Notes under the pieces: generated by a model
Told to the model about the DNA's origin: nothing
What the model saw: the letters and a program-made list of their open reading frames with translations, nothing else
Databases searched by the model: none
Translations under genes and position numbers: made by a program
Source of the DNA: a virus
Length of the DNA stretch: 22,814 nt
IMG/VR virus record: IMGVR_UViG_3300030331_006235
Location: 1-22,814 of that record
Strand: one strand, 5' to 3'
Part shown: positions 1,333 to 22,814 of the stretch, piece after piece
How positions within the stretch are numbered: the stretch's first letter is position 1
How the letters are laid out: every line of letters begins with the position of its first letter

Positions 1333-3147
1333 ATGTCTAGCATTATCGAAAGATTGACCGAAGGAGTTGTCAATCGTGATATGCGTGCCGAAGGCCATGC
1401 CCTGCTTTCCAAGTGGGAACGCACCGGTCTTCTTGAGGGACTTGAAACAGAAGTTTCCCGCAAGAACATGGCACGATTGCTTGAAAACCAAGCAAAGGAA
1501 TTACTTCGTGAAAGTTCTTCCATGGCTGGTGGCGATGTCGAAGGATTCGCTGCTGTAGCTTTCCCTATTGTTCGTCGTGTTTTCGCTGGCTTGATTGCCA
1601 ACGATCTCGTCGCCGTTCAACCTATGAGTCTCCCATCGGGTCTCATTTTCTTCCTCGACTTTACTGTTGATGGAAACCGCCCTTCCCCAGCGAAGCCCGG
1701 TTACGCTGCTGATTCGTCGTTCTACGGCGGTGGCGTTGTTGGTTCGCAACTTACTGGTGGTATCAGCTTGTCTGGAGACAACGCTGAAGCTGGTCCTTAT
1801 GGACTTAACAACGGATATGCATCGCCAACTGGTTCCGCTCAATTAGCAGGTACCTCGTTTGTTCTTGTAGCTTCTGGTTGTGTTGGAAACGGTGGTGCCG
1901 CAACTGGTGGTACTGACGGACTTTCCGCTGCAGATCAAGCTGTGCTTGATTCTCTTTGCAGCTATGACCCCGACCTCTCTGGTTCGATGGTCTGTGTTGT
2001 TGAGCAAACCGGTTCGGCGCATCTTGAACAACTTAACGTGCAAGATTTAACAACCCTTGCTCTCTTGGACACTACTGCTACCACTACGGTTGTTAGAAAC
2101 AACGCAAAGATTATTCGTCGTCTTTCCAGACTTTCGTCTGGTTCTGTTTCGAATGATCCTAGCACTGCACAATACAAGATTACGCTTGTATACGCTCAAA
2201 AGTCTGGCTCCGTTGCATTCGACGTTGGTGGTGCTAACTCGCTCTTGGCTGCTGTAACTGGTAACCATAAGCACCAAGTTAGTTTCCAAATTGACGATGA
2301 CTTCCAAGCTAGCACCGCGCTTGGTTCTGTTGTTGGAGACGCAACTTGGGGTCTTGAAAATCAAGTTGATATCCCAGAAATCAACATCAAGGTTGATAGC
2401 ATTGCTGTCACCGCGATGACCAAGAAGCTTAAGGCTAAGTGGACACCTGAGTTGGGGCAAGATCTCAACGCATACCACAACCTTGATGCTGAAGTTGAGT
2501 TGACTAGCATTCTCTCTGAGCAAATTGCTCTTGAGATTGACCGCGAAATCCTTGAAGATCTCGTTGTCGGTGCTACCGCTGGCACTCTCTACTGGTCGCG
2601 TTCTCCCGGTCTTTTTGTGAACCGTGAAACTGGTCAAGAAATCGGCGCATCTTCTGCTGCTCCTGACTTCACCGGTACAGTTTCCGAGTGGTATGAAACC
2701 CTCATTGAAACAATCAATGATGTTTCTGCTCGTATTCACCGTAAGACTCTTCGCGGCGGCGCAAACTTCTTGGTATGTTCGCCAGAAGTTGCCAATATCC
2801 TTGAGTTCACCTCTGGGTTCCGTGCTTCTGTCACTGCTGACGATGAGCGCGGCTCCGCTGGTGCCGTAAGAGTTGGTGCAATCAGTAAGAAGTTCGACGT
2901 ATATGTTGATCCATACTTCCTCCGCAATGTGATCCTTGTTGGTCGCCGCGGAACCTCTTTCCTTGAAAGCGGATATGTGTATGCTCCATACGTCCCACTT
3001 CAAACTACTCCTACGATCTTCGGACCTGAAGACTTCGTGCCGCGTAAGGGTGTCATGACTCGCTACGCTAAGAAGATGGTCCGTCCTGATTTATATGGAT
3101 TGGTTATCTGTCGCGGACTTATTGGTGAAGCTGGCGCAACTAGCTAA
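1333..3147 (+). CDS. Major capsid protein, gp23-like
   Basis: Forms the hexamers of the icosahedral or prolate head (HK97 fold). The 604-residue product shows the gp23 N-terminal plan: a helical delta region with LLENQAKELL (about 49-58), then a hydrophobic stretch IVRRVFAGLIANDLVAVQPM (79-98). That stretch parallels the T4 gp23 segment MVRRAIPNLIAFDICGVQPM. A likely head-protease site of the L/I-x-E type is L58-R-E60, which would remove a 60-residue propeptide, comparable with the 65 removed in T4. At 604 residues it is longer than T4 gp23 (521), with Gly/Ser/Thr-rich stretches around 110-200 that may be a surface insertion. Codons are visibly richer in G and C than in flanking genes. A hairpin follows at 3173-3199. 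Confidence 0.95.
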   Translation: MSSIIERLTEGVVNRDMRAEGHALLSKWERTGLLEGLETEVSRKNMARLLENQAKELLRESSSMAGGDVEGFAAVAFPIVRRVFAGLIANDLVAVQPMSLPSGLIFFLDFTVDGNRPSPAKPGYAADSSFYGGGVVGSQLTGGISLSGDNAEAGPYGLNNGYASPTGSAQLAGTSFVLVASGCVGNGGAATGGTDGLSAADQAVLDSLCSYDPDLSGSMVCVVEQTGSAHLEQLNVQDLTTLALLDTTATTTVVRNNAKIIRRLSRLSSGSVSNDPSTAQYKITLVYAQKSGSVAFDVGGANSLLAAVTGNHKHQVSFQIDDDFQASTALGSVVGDATWGLENQVDIPEINIKVDSIAVTAMTKKLKAKWTPELGQDLNAYHNLDAEVELTSILSEQIALEIDREILEDLVVGATAGTLYWSRSPGLFVNRETGQEIGASSAAPDFTGTVSEWYETLIETINDVSARIHRKTLRGGANFLVCSPEVANILEFTSGFRASVTADDERGSAGAVRVGAISKKFDVYVDPYFLRNVILVGRRGTSFLESGYVYAPYVPLQTTPTIFGPEDFVPRKGVMTRYAKKMVRPDLYGLVICRGLIGEAGATS

Positions 3148-19051: not shown

Positions 19052-20353
19052 ATGTCAATATTCTATAAAACTTCTAATAATGATGAATCACAAAATTTAT
19101 ATGAAAAAAAACTAATCTACGAATCAGATATTCTAGAATCAGAGTACGATAATTTAGTCAATTTTCAAATAGCCGAAAAATTCATGTACGGAAGAGTTAA
19201 TTTTTCCTACAACCCAATAGTATATGACGCCGATAATGTGCCACTTTCGACTTTATCTAATACCAACACAGAACAGACAGATCTACAAGCAGCGTGTTAT
19301 GTAGCTAACGCTTTTAATGATTTAGCACAAAAATTTAGAACAAAAATCCTATCAGGTGAAATAGATTCTAATCAAGAATTTTTATCGAATCTTGAAGTAA
19401 AAAAAGCCTATCAAGATCCTGTCAGATTGTACAAACAGTACTTGCTGGAATTACAACAAGAAATAATAAACACAATTAAATCAAGTGATACAAAATTTGA
19501 TGATTATAACAAATTTAAAGTATCTTTTTATGAAATAATAAAAAAAATATCAAATGAAAGACCTATAACATTCCCCGGTTTTATGAAAAGTAGGTTTTGC
19601 CCAATTAATGTTAGTGGTTTAGTTATTGAAATTGCTGATATTGATTACGATAATGATCTTGAAAAAATAATAGAATTCAAAAACAGTCGTAATTGGAAAT
19701 TCTACCTAAATACATGTCGCTCATATGGATTTTTAGTTGATTCATCCAACCCTTTTAGATTAATTGCCAACATTGGCTCACCAGAGATGCTAGAATACGC
19801 TGAAAATACACCAAATTGTAGATTATCATCAACCGTTGAAATATTGTCAACTAGCTACAGTCTTGCACGTAATAATTACGAATCTGTTTTCAGACAATTC
19901 GCTTTAGAAACTTACAATTTAGCAAGTTCTTTTTATCTCAACATCGAGAGATGCAAAGATGGGACAGTTTTAACCAATATAGTTGAACCAAAAAAGTATA
20001 CCAGTGATGAAGCTGCAGGATTAATAACAGATTCAGAGTTTATCGCAATATATATGGACTTGAGATTTAATGAGGAAAATACTTCATACAAGCAATATCA
20101 AAAAAATATTATTATACGAAATACGAAAAACAAGCTAAAAAACAAAAATTTACAAGTTGCATTGAGGTATTTTGCGAAATTTATCGCCTCTACATACAAC
20201 CGAAGCGGCTCCTTGACAGATTTAATAAATCGTGCTACATTATATAATAAAGAACGCACAGATTCATTAGATGGTGCCTCTTCTGTCTCTACTTCAGCGG
20301 ATAACTCAACCGTTGGGTCAGCGTCTACGGGAACTAGTACTTCGGGTTATTAA
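19052..20353 (+). CDS. Conserved-looking protein of unknown function, probably tail/baseplate associated
   Basis: I do not recognise a named family. The 433-residue product is charged, Asn/Lys/Tyr-rich and mostly helical. It contains a notable block at about 176-215 (FPGFMKSRFCPINVSGLVIE, then SRNWKFYLNTCRSYGFLVD) and another near 247-290 with regularly spaced Tyr/Phe. The C-terminal 30 residues are a Ser/Thr/Gly tail of low complexity. TAGGAA upstream serves as a weak ribosome site. The stop codon overlaps the polymerase start by one base (TAATG at 20351-20355), so the two are translationally coupled. Tail-linked status is from its position after the hub gene; it could equally belong with the DNA-metabolism genes that follow. 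Composition is much AT-richer than the capsid gene. Confidence 0.6.
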   Translation: MSIFYKTSNNDESQNLYEKKLIYESDILESEYDNLVNFQIAEKFMYGRVNFSYNPIVYDADNVPLSTLSNTNTEQTDLQAACYVANAFNDLAQKFRTKILSGEIDSNQEFLSNLEVKKAYQDPVRLYKQYLLELQQEIINTIKSSDTKFDDYNKFKVSFYEIIKKISNERPITFPGFMKSRFCPINVSGLVIEIADIDYDNDLEKIIEFKNSRNWKFYLNTCRSYGFLVDSSNPFRLIANIGSPEMLEYAENTPNCRLSSTVEILSTSYSLARNNYESVFRQFALETYNLASSFYLNIERCKDGTVLTNIVEPKKYTSDEAAGLITDSEFIAIYMDLRFNEENTSYKQYQKNIIIRNTKNKLKNKNLQVALRYFAKFIASTYNRSGSLTDLINRATLYNKERTDSLDGASSVSTSADNSTVGSASTGTSTSGY

Positions 20354-21561
20354 TGTATTTTCAAACTCTTGATGACAAAACTGAATGTGTCGGTGTATAT
20401 AAAGATGGTGAATTATATTTCGATGATTTTCCAGATAATTTGCTGCGAACTTGGAAATATTCAGGTTCTATAACAGACGATAATGTTGAATATGCGTGGC
20501 TTTACGCCGAGGGTCAAACGTTGCGGGATGCCTGCCCTCCAGAGTATGAAAAAGAATTAAATTCTAGCATGCGAAAAATGGAGGCATTTTTTAAATCATT
20601 TCAAATAGCAAAGTTAAATATGAATGAGCATTGTATATTTGATCTTATTCCTGAAGATTCACTAGCAGCATTTTGTGAAATAAAAAATAAAATTACTGAA
20701 TATGTGTTCACCAATTATAGTAAACCTAATAACTACGTTTTTTTGAATGAAGCACAAAAATTACTTTATTCAATTAGAGAAACAAATTTGAATATTGATA
20801 TCTCTGATTGCAAATCTCTTTTTACCTCAACTAATAATCGTCTCGGTTTACAAAAAATTACCAATGGACCAAAATATATCGATTATAACCTCTTTGGCAC
20901 CGTCACTGGCCGTTTGACTACTTACCCAAGGTCTTTCCCTATTTTAACTATGAAAAGAGATTTTAGGCGTATTATAAAGCCACACAATGATTGGTTTTTA
21001 TCTCTAGATTATAATGGTGCAGAGGTTCGCACTGTGCTGGCACTTTTGGGAAAGACACAGCCAAGTGAAGATATCCACAATTGGAATGTCGCCAATATAT
21101 TCAATAGCTCCGAATACACCCAGCAAGAGATACCTTTTGATAGAGATGATGCAAAAGTATTATTTTTCGGATGGTTGTACAACCCAGATTCTGAGGTGAT
21201 TAAATCTACTCTTTACGATAGAGATGCGATTATTGATCAATACTACATAGATGGCTCAGTGAGCACAATATTTGGCAGAAATATAGAAGTTGACAAACGT
21301 AGGGCTCTAAGCTATATTGTGCAGAGTACAACCTCAGACTTAGTGCTTGATAGGGCCATAGCTATATCAAAACTATTAGAGGGAAAAAGTAGTTTTGTTT
21401 CGCATCTTGTGCATGATGAGGTGGTAATTGATTTACATGATGAGGATAAGCACTTGGTGCCCGAGATAAAAGATATTTTTTCTAATAATAAACTTGATAA
21501 TTTCTTGGTAAATTTAAGTGCCGGCAAAAACTTTTATGATTTGGAAGAGCTAAAATTATGA
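20353..21561 (+). CDS. Compact family A DNA polymerase (PolA-like)
   Basis: Predicted 5'-3' DNA polymerase of the Pol I family. The key motifs are present: TGRLTT (185-190), motif A D219-Y-N-G-A-E224-V-R226 (DYSQIELR type), motif B R264-x3-K268-x3-F272-G-x2-Y276, a GSVSTIFGRN strand (301-310) with a downstream Q324 region, and motif C H354-D355-E356. The catalytic aspartates D219 and D355 and O-helix lysine K268 are intact. There are 402 residues against about 930 in E. coli Pol I. The 150 residues before the palm show no exonuclease motifs, and the B-to-C spacing (87) is shorter than in E. coli (about 124). F272, like E. coli F762, predicts dideoxy discrimination. It overlaps both neighbours by 1-4 bp. 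T4 itself uses a family B polymerase, so this is unusual. Confidence 0.88.
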   Translation: MYFQTLDDKTECVGVYKDGELYFDDFPDNLLRTWKYSGSITDDNVEYAWLYAEGQTLRDACPPEYEKELNSSMRKMEAFFKSFQIAKLNMNEHCIFDLIPEDSLAAFCEIKNKITEYVFTNYSKPNNYVFLNEAQKLLYSIRETNLNIDISDCKSLFTSTNNRLGLQKITNGPKYIDYNLFGTVTGRLTTYPRSFPILTMKRDFRRIIKPHNDWFLSLDYNGAEVRTVLALLGKTQPSEDIHNWNVANIFNSSEYTQQEIPFDRDDAKVLFFGWLYNPDSEVIKSTLYDRDAIIDQYYIDGSVSTIFGRNIEVDKRRALSYIVQSTTSDLVLDRAIAISKLLEGKSSFVSHLVHDEVVIDLHDEDKHLVPEIKDIFSNNKLDNFLVNLSAGKNFYDLEELKL

Positions 21562-22424
21562 TTTCGATCGTTGGTATTGGAAATGCGGCATCATCGATTG
21601 CTAAAAAATTTGATGGTATGTCGCAGTATGATGTTTATCTTTTAAATGACAAGTTTAAGAAGTCAACAAAAACAAATTACAAATTAAAATCGTTTGAAAA
21701 ACCAGAAGATTATGAAAAAAACATACCAGATTTACGCAATTTTTTTAAGGACGTTAGAGATCGTGTACAAGTATTTATTACCGGAGCGTCATTGAGTTCT
21801 ATTTACAGTCTTGGAATTCTTGAACAACTAAAAGATAAAGAATTAGATGTTTTTTTTATCAAACCCGATATTGAACTTTTGACAGGAGTACCAAGACTTG
21901 TCGAAAATATGGTTTTCGGTGTTTTGCAGGAATACGCAAGATCTGGTAATCTTAGAAGTTTTACAATTTTTTCAAATGAAAATATTGAACAAATACATGC
22001 ATCAATTAATTTGAAAACATATTACGATACGATCAATACCACCATATTTTCTTCTGTGCATTATCTAAATTATTTTGAGCATACAGAGCCACATATTGGT
22101 AACATGTCTAAGCCTAGCGATATTAGTAGGATTAGAACCGTTGGTATGCTTGATATGAAAAAATTAACAGAAATGTGGCTTTTTAACCTTGACATGGAAC
22201 GAGAACTGTGCTATTATATGTGTATAAATTCTGAAAGACTTGAGGGGGAAATTGGTCTTCATAAAAAGCTCGTTGATATTTTAAAAAGCAAACCAAGAAA
22301 TGCCTTTCGTAAAATATCGTATTCAATTTATGAAACAGAATTACCAGATTTTGGGTTTGTCGTGGCCCATACAAATGCGACACAAACAAATAAAAATACT
22401 CTTGACAAGCTAGAGCAAGAGTGA
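21558..22424 (+). CDS. Divergent tubulin/FtsZ-superfamily-like protein
   Basis: A 288-residue protein whose layout follows FtsZ/tubulin. The first strand and nucleotide loop, IVGIGNAASSIAKKF (4-18), resemble tubulin GQCGNQIGAKF. A strand VFITG at 72-76 leads to a Ser/Ala-rich loop where the GGGTGSG motif would lie. Then come strand VFFIKPD (98-104), strand FTIFSNENIEQI (135-146, like IPNDKLL), a helix with DTIN (157-160) like FtsZ H7, and PSDISRIRTVGM (186-197) like DFADVRTVM. The C terminus shows strand CYYMCI, helix LHKKLVDILK and strands SYSIYE and GFVVAHTN, matching the beta-alpha-beta-beta C domain. The glycine-rich signature is lost, so GTP binding is uncertain. Smaller than FtsZ (about 380) and PhuZ (about 315). 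It begins in ATGA overlap with the polymerase stop, so it is coupled. Assignment is by eye. Confidence 0.6.
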   Translation: MISIVGIGNAASSIAKKFDGMSQYDVYLLNDKFKKSTKTNYKLKSFEKPEDYEKNIPDLRNFFKDVRDRVQVFITGASLSSIYSLGILEQLKDKELDVFFIKPDIELLTGVPRLVENMVFGVLQEYARSGNLRSFTIFSNENIEQIHASINLKTYYDTINTTIFSSVHYLNYFEHTEPHIGNMSKPSDISRIRTVGMLDMKKLTEMWLFNLDMERELCYYMCINSERLEGEIGLHKKLVDILKSKPRNAFRKISYSIYETELPDFGFVVAHTNATQTNKNTLDKLEQE

Positions 22425-22482: not shown

Positions 22483-22814
22483 ATGTCAATTAATATGGAC
22501 CTAATGCGCAAGAAACTTGCAACCCTTCGCGGTGACGGAAAAGGTAATGGAGACTCCATTTTCTTTAAGCCCGATGAAGGAGATACAGATATTCGCATCG
22601 TACCAACCAATGATGGTGATCCACTCAAGGAAGTCTTCTTTCATTACAATGTCGGTGAACATAAAGGCGGAATTGTGTGCCCAAAGCGTAATTTTGGTGA
22701 ACGCTGCCCTGTATGCGATTTTGCATCTGCAGTTTGGAAAGAGGGCACTGAAAATAATGATGAAGAAGCTAAGAAGCTTGCAAAGTCTCTCTTTGTACGA
22801 GCACGTTACTTTTC
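22483..22814 (+). CDS. Single-stranded DNA-binding protein gp32, N-terminal part (cut by window end)
   Basis: Coats single-stranded DNA in replication, recombination and repair. The visible 110 residues begin MSINMDLMRKKLATLRGDGK, a short basic N terminus like the cooperative-binding region of gp32. They continue with FKPDEGDTDIRIVPT and the zinc-binding set H54-x11-C66-x8-C75-x2-C78. T4 gp32 has H64-x12-C77-x9-C87-x2-C90, so spacing is nearly the same. GGAG at 22470-22473 precedes the ATG by 9 nt. The gene is preceded by its own TTGACA promoter and runs off the window. Confidence 0.9.
   Translation, partial: MSINMDLMRKKLATLRGDGKGNGDSIFFKPDEGDTDIRIVPTNDGDPLKEVFFHYNVGEHKGGIVCPKRNFGERCPVCDFASAVWKEGTENNDEEAKKLAKSLFVRARYF

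Follow-up and report, generated by a model that had tools for sequence, protein, structure and literature searches.

The window, that is, the whole stretch of DNA analyzed here, is a 22.8-kb viral record (22,814 nucleotides) in which T4-type genes run in one direction, among them gp23 capsid protein, tail sheath, gp19 tube and baseplate (T4_baseplate), with a DNA polymerase (PolA), the gene under study (Tub-B) and a single-stranded DNA-binding protein (SSB) at the right end. The initial annotation had placed a divergent tubulin/FtsZ-like protein of a T4-like phage at the Tub-B locus, and the ORF was found in the sequence as described, with ATG as its start codon. The motifs on which that call relied are present as well, namely GIGNAASSIAKKF (residues 6-18), IKPD (101-104), SNENI (139-143), DTIN (157-160) and PSDISRIRTVGM (186-197), and the phage type was recognized correctly, since gp23, tail sheath, gp19 and gp32 are all encoded in the window. 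Its capsid protein is of the gp23 kind and its tail and replication genes are of T4 type, which makes the phage T4-like. The nearest named relatives of the capsid protein are Mel-JY01, immuto and RM378, plus two huge-phage records, and on the capsid protein alone the phage would be placed in Far-T4. The features considered are listed in Table 1.

Table 1. Features of the window and locations of FtsZ-A in three related contigs (positions after a contig name refer to that contig)
Feature	Position	Strand	Description	Evidence
gp23	1333..3147	+	T4-type major capsid protein, marks a T4-like phage	PF07068, E 3e-73
unk433	19052..20353	+	433-aa protein, conserved upstream neighbour, no family match of note	conserved position
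PolA	20353..21561	+	402-aa family-A DNA polymerase, polymerase domain only	PF00476, E 1.9e-12
ATGA overlap	21558..21561	+	PolA stop/Tub-B start, translational coupling	sequence, related loci
Tub-B	21558..22424	+	288-aa degenerate tubulin/FtsZ-fold protein	ORF, relatives, AF2 model, fold searches
T1 loop	21573..21596	+	GIGNAASS, residues 6-13; G6 and G8 invariant, other glycines of GxGGGGGN mostly lost
T4 loop	21783..21803	+	residues 76-82 read GASLSSI and replace GGGTG(S/T)G	alignments
N140	21975..21977	+	follows strand S6 directly; site of the T6 Asn that contacts guanine	DSSP of model, alignments
N160	22035..22037	+	invariant residue of helix H7; in the alignment its E. coli FtsZ counterpart is N186, beside D187	model, alignments
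T7 loop/H8 region	22083..22136	+	residues 176-193	alignments
SSB	22483..22814	+	gp32-like single-stranded DNA-binding protein, cut by window end	PF08804, E 2.3e-7; phrog_1192, E 1.2e-14
FtsZ-A	L112:1303-2439
FtsZ-A	L114:1036-2172	-
FtsZ-A	L122:9995-11134

The initial annotation had also described Tub-B as fused by overlap to the polymerase gene. The overlap is real, four nucleotides long and of the kind that couples translation; of 104 related loci, 98 have ATGA here and 6 have GTGA. The two proteins themselves are not fused. The gene order unk433/PolA/Tub-B/SSB is kept wherever a contig extends far enough, and the operon as a whole reads PolA/Tub-B/gp32/UvsX/5'-3' exonuclease/DnaB helicase. 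In every case the polymerase is preceded by the 433-aa protein, whose sequence (26-57% identity) diverges more quickly than those of the adjacent proteins. PolA has no 3'-5' exonuclease domain. In contig L065 the third gene past Tub-B encodes a separate 5'-3' exonuclease, and the long contigs yielded no family-B polymerase.

Relatives of Tub-B are numerous. A first scan confirmed 78, a profile scan confirmed at least 486 among the first 599 candidate stretches listed, and a scan started from a divergent member gave 100. These relatives are full-length ORFs under strong purifying selection (dN 0.004-0.12, dS 0.02-2.1, dN/dS about 0.04-0.19) which, together with the kept gene order, makes Tub-B a real gene, far beyond chance. 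One member (G016), flagged in its match as broken by a stop, was found to have an intact ORF of 280 aa, and the supposed break was rejected. Comparison with known families by sequence gave nothing: Pfam returned no match up to E 10, PF00091 included; PHROGs returned only phrog_8956 (E 0.12) and not the PhuZ profile phrog_4733; PDB profile searches gave chance-level matches (cysteine synthase and others); Tub-B was not detected by tblastn in phages, and searches of genome contigs found neither Tub-B nor FtsZ-A, the second tubulin described below. Vibrio phage 184E37 was rejected as a relative, because its match (E 0.07) consists of two pieces in different short ORFs and is due to chance.

An AlphaFold2 model, a single predicted structure built with no templates from a 31-sequence alignment of the family itself, reached pLDDT 84.6 and pTM 0.85 and consists of a GTPase-type Rossmann domain, a central helix H7 and a C-terminal alpha/beta domain, i.e. 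the two-domain tubulin/FtsZ fold. The best Foldseek matches in the PDB were E. coli FtsZ, S. aureus FtsZ, CetZ and TubZ (E 1e-12 to 1e-11, TM 0.63-0.70, prob 1.00). VIA-align gave Z 23.6 against CetZ 3zid (3.1 A over 267 residues) and Z 21-23 against TubZ and tubulin (TubZ 4ei7 Z 22.6, 2xka Z 21.9). In the viral structure library (BFVD) the six best matches had E below 1e-5, the informatively named ones being FtsZ, cell division protein or PhuZ, and unrelated matches began at E 4e-4 with TM about 0.3. The fold, which the initial annotation had proposed from motif order, is thus matched by the template-free model along the whole chain; FtsZ, CetZ and TubZ ranked best, no unrelated Rossmann family came out on top, and an unrelated Rossmann fold such as a dehydrogenase or methyltransferase was rejected on the Foldseek, VIA-align and viral-library results. 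Two longer uncultured-phage proteins in BFVD, A0A6J5RW92 and A0A8S5UFG9, annotated as FtsZ or cell division proteins, also match the fold.

The nucleotide site was surveyed in 40 diverse aligned Tub-B members, with equivalences to FtsZ set by the DSSP boundaries of the model and an alignment at 10-15% identity rather than by superposed coordinates. In divergent members the T1 loop reads GIGTAGEN, which is close to GVGGGGGN and of the same length, and a shortened T1 was therefore rejected. The T4 signature is gone: 39 of the 40 members have G-[SA]-[SA]-x-[STC]-[SA]-[NILS], one has G at the second place, and the first glycine (G76) alone is invariant. The loop VFITGASLSS (residues 72-81), noted in the initial annotation as lacking glycines, is present but retains this one. 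Of the T7 catalytic residues, again placed by DSSP-anchored sequence alignment, the position of FtsZ N207 is Asn in 26 of 40 members and that of D212 is D/E in 34 of 40, while that of D209 is mostly S/A/T/V, the aspartate being lost in all 40. N140 is invariant (40/40) and by its place in the alignment would be the T6 Asn; N140 and N160 lie at or beside the guanine-holding positions of FtsZ and tubulin, and their conservation suggests that the nucleotide face still matters. With the T4 signature and the T7 aspartate lost, catalysis by Tub-B is very unlikely. The earlier expectation of altered or no GTP binding is only partly settled: T4 and the T7 aspartate are lost, but N140 and N160 are kept in all members.

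Tub-B almost certainly has the tubulin/FtsZ fold, with loss of the phosphate-binding T4 loop and of the T7 catalytic aspartate. On its predicted structure it belongs to the tubulin/FtsZ fold superfamily, but the defining features tested for the PF00091 GTPase family and for PhuZ failed, and we class it as a tubulin-fold pseudo-GTPase, not as FtsZ, TubZ or PhuZ. As its fold is invisible to sequence search, similar proteins have probably been overlooked in other phages.

A PF00091 search of long related contigs revealed, in the three largest, a 378-aa FtsZ-like protein (FtsZ-A) above the curated cut-off (33.5-33.9 bits against 33), which matched FtsZ in phmmer (E 2.5e-10) and scored best against FtsZ/CetZ, not PhuZ. 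A further PF00091 match in L115 (E 0.006) was rejected, as it falls in the gene of a large structural protein of about 1000 aa. Relatives of FtsZ-A occur in at least 174 contigs, and the motifs GVGGGGN, GGGGGTGSS, LDNE and FDSKDLET are invariant in 21 sequences. From its PF00091 match and motifs FtsZ-A is predicted to be a canonical FtsZ-like GTPase; its AF2 model is of low confidence (pLDDT 48). The protein carries a conserved acidic N-terminal extension of about 60 residues (EFDFLPPAEPPPSFNQEKDHYHEEV...) and stops at the last strand, without an FtsZ-type C-terminal linker or tail peptide. Its gene is preceded by those for a RuvC-like resolvase, an endonuclease, a primase and an SbcC/gp46-type protein, within the last codons of whose ORF FtsZ-A starts in L116; terminase, portal and head protease come after it. 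The gene next to FtsZ-A is not the same between phages (L112 vs L114). Two small ORFs (127 and 102 aa) lie just after FtsZ-A in L116 (L116:11134-11822), the first overlapping it by ATGA, and these could encode partners of FtsZ-A.

A total of 26 contigs with FtsZ-A (41-196 kb) were used to examine co-occurrence. All 11 that continue for about 40 kb past FtsZ-A encode Tub-B, on the same strand and at a distance of 39.1-42.8 kb downstream, in one case counted across the wrap-round of a 195,459-base contig; the remaining 15, without Tub-B, end within 34 kb. Because G001 and G002 are near-identical, these amount to about ten independent cases, all of one lineage. The record of the window itself is 22.8 kb long, and we infer that its phage carries FtsZ-A as well, as do relatives whose Tub-B is 83-86% identical and whose genes are arranged alike. 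Between genomes, identity is 88-98% for FtsZ-A, 59-82% for the capsid protein, 44-88% for Tub-B and 50-78% for PolA, so among the compared proteins constraint is strongest on FtsZ-A. In a profile comparison of Tub-B with FtsZ-A (hhalign) the T1 region alone aligned (P 0.04); it gave no close kinship between the two, and a recent duplication of FtsZ-A was rejected.

Judging from contigs of 191, 195 and 196 kb, the genome would measure about 190-196 kb. Phage tubulins are known from jumbo phages and partition systems, and in jumbo phages a multi-subunit RNA polymerase tracks with tubulin (PMC7824862); this mark of nucleus-forming, Chimalliviridae-like jumbo phages was looked for with PF00562, which was absent from seven contigs of 127-196 kb, with 14 of 14 controls positive. 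PhuZ, the spindle tubulin of nucleus-forming jumbo phages and itself a dynamic filament (PMC4244570), is like Tub-B a phage-encoded tubulin fold (BFVD, Noxifer PhuZ, E 3e-8), and a link to the positioning of phage DNA is plausible for Tub-B too. Unlike PhuZ, Tub-B is without GTPase motifs, and its phages differ from PhuZ phages in their genomes of ~190 kb, gp23-type capsid, lack of a detectable multi-subunit RNA polymerase and second, FtsZ-like protein. With FtsZ and CetZ, Tub-B shares the two-domain fold over the whole chain and the T6 and H7 Asn positions, but it has no GGGTG(S/T)G, no D209 equivalent and no Pfam match, is 288 aa long and is only 8-13% identical. TubZ, the tubulin of plasmid and phage partition, is a GTPase that acts together with a DNA-binding adaptor in partition; Tub-B has the same fold but no GTPase signature, and lies in a replication operon. 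Archaea with dual FtsZ1/FtsZ2 (e.g. Odinarchaeota, Haloferax) likewise hold two tubulin-family proteins per genome with divided roles (PMC12583498), but both of those paralogues are polymeric FtsZ, whereas one of the phage pair is without signature motifs. The only match to FtsZ-A in a phage collection was the FtsZ-like product of gene 138 of Bacillus phage G (25% over half of the query), an unrelated phage of 498 kb without a Tub-B match. PF00091 found no convincing match in the phages and metagenomic phages with the nearest capsids, and matched phage G as positive control. The Far-T4 paper mentions neither tubulin nor FtsZ (PMC4360716). In searches of open-access literature, which are no proof of absence, we found no report of a phage tubulin without GTPase signature, of one in a core replication operon, or of one paired with FtsZ in T4-like phages. 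These findings point to a phage cytoskeleton of two parts that is linked to DNA replication and has not been described before.

The reading we tentatively favour, possible though short of probable, is a two-protein tubulin system in which Tub-B couples the replisome to FtsZ-A filaments or regulates them. FtsZ-A, encoded behind the gp46/SbcC recombination gene, would form a GTP-driven filament. Tub-B would attach to it end-on, in the longitudinal direction, as an adaptor or a subunit that does not hydrolyse GTP, serving as cap, nucleator or minority component. Without a T7 aspartate, Tub-B would fail to set off GTP hydrolysis in the subunit next to it, and the filament would be locally stabilised or capped; translated in coupling with the DNA polymerase, it would tether or position replisomes or phage DNA during infection, and its linkage to PolA and gp32 suggests a role in carrying them to the filament. 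This reading is supported by the fold, by the loss of T4 and T7 with the T6/H7 Asn kept, by the intact motifs of FtsZ-A, by the co-occurrence (11/11), by the replisome operon and by the constraint on FtsZ-A, which exceeds that on the capsid protein. Against it, the two genes lie 40 kb apart in separate operons, no close kinship was found by profile comparison, the 11 contigs are of a single lineage and not independent, the low confidence of the FtsZ-A model bears on its C-terminal domain, and Tub-B diverges much faster (44-88% vs 88-98%), unlike an obligate co-polymer subunit. That last point also weighs against the idea that Tub-B binds guanine nucleotide or another ligand through an altered phosphate site and is an obligate, alpha-tubulin-like co-polymer with FtsZ-A. 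Although N140 and N160 are invariant at guanine-contact positions, G6, G8 and G76 are invariant with small polar residues at 77-81, T1 is near-canonical in divergent members and co-occurrence is complete where it could be tested, the T4 signature is gone and the D209 position is S/A/T/V in nearly all aligned members, and we consider this unlikely.

Tub-B may instead be a repurposed fold that serves the replisome only, acting next to gp32 as, for example, a loader or a structural accessory and playing no part in a cytoskeleton, its co-occurrence with FtsZ-A being merely that of two core genes of one lineage. Its place between polymerase and gp32 in a core replication operon, its lost GTPase signature and a rate of change like that of the polymerase (44-88% vs 50-78% identity) all fit, but the same genomes hold a dedicated phage FtsZ and the conserved T6/H7 Asn indicate a nucleotide face that apparently still matters; this is rather unlikely in our judgement. 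Quite improbable is a decoy or cap that poisons host FtsZ and blocks division. A tubulin-fold subunit without catalytic residues could cap filaments, and small phage inhibitors of FtsZ are an established precedent (T7 Gp0.4 and lambda Kil; PMC3961180, PMC4944311); however, the Tub-B gene is coupled to polymerase and gp32, outside any host-takeover region, and the phage has an FtsZ of its own that could likewise be hit by a generic cap.

In its fullest form the two-protein reading would be a heteromeric cytoskeleton, in which a catalytically dead tubulin, encoded among the replisome genes, either caps a hyper-conserved FtsZ of the phage or assembles together with it, and positions replicating DNA in ~190-kb T4-like phages without signs of a nucleus; we hold this to be doubtful, though possible. 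If true, phage cytoskeletons would extend beyond nucleus-forming phages, Tub-B would be an example of a pseudo-GTPase tubulin partner, and the pair would offer a small two-gene test system for the effect of a catalytically dead subunit on tubulin filaments. At the C-terminus of Tub-B, the tail NTLDKLEQE (window positions 22386-22421) is wholly absent from some members and conserved, though poorly ordered, in many others, and might be a docking peptide.
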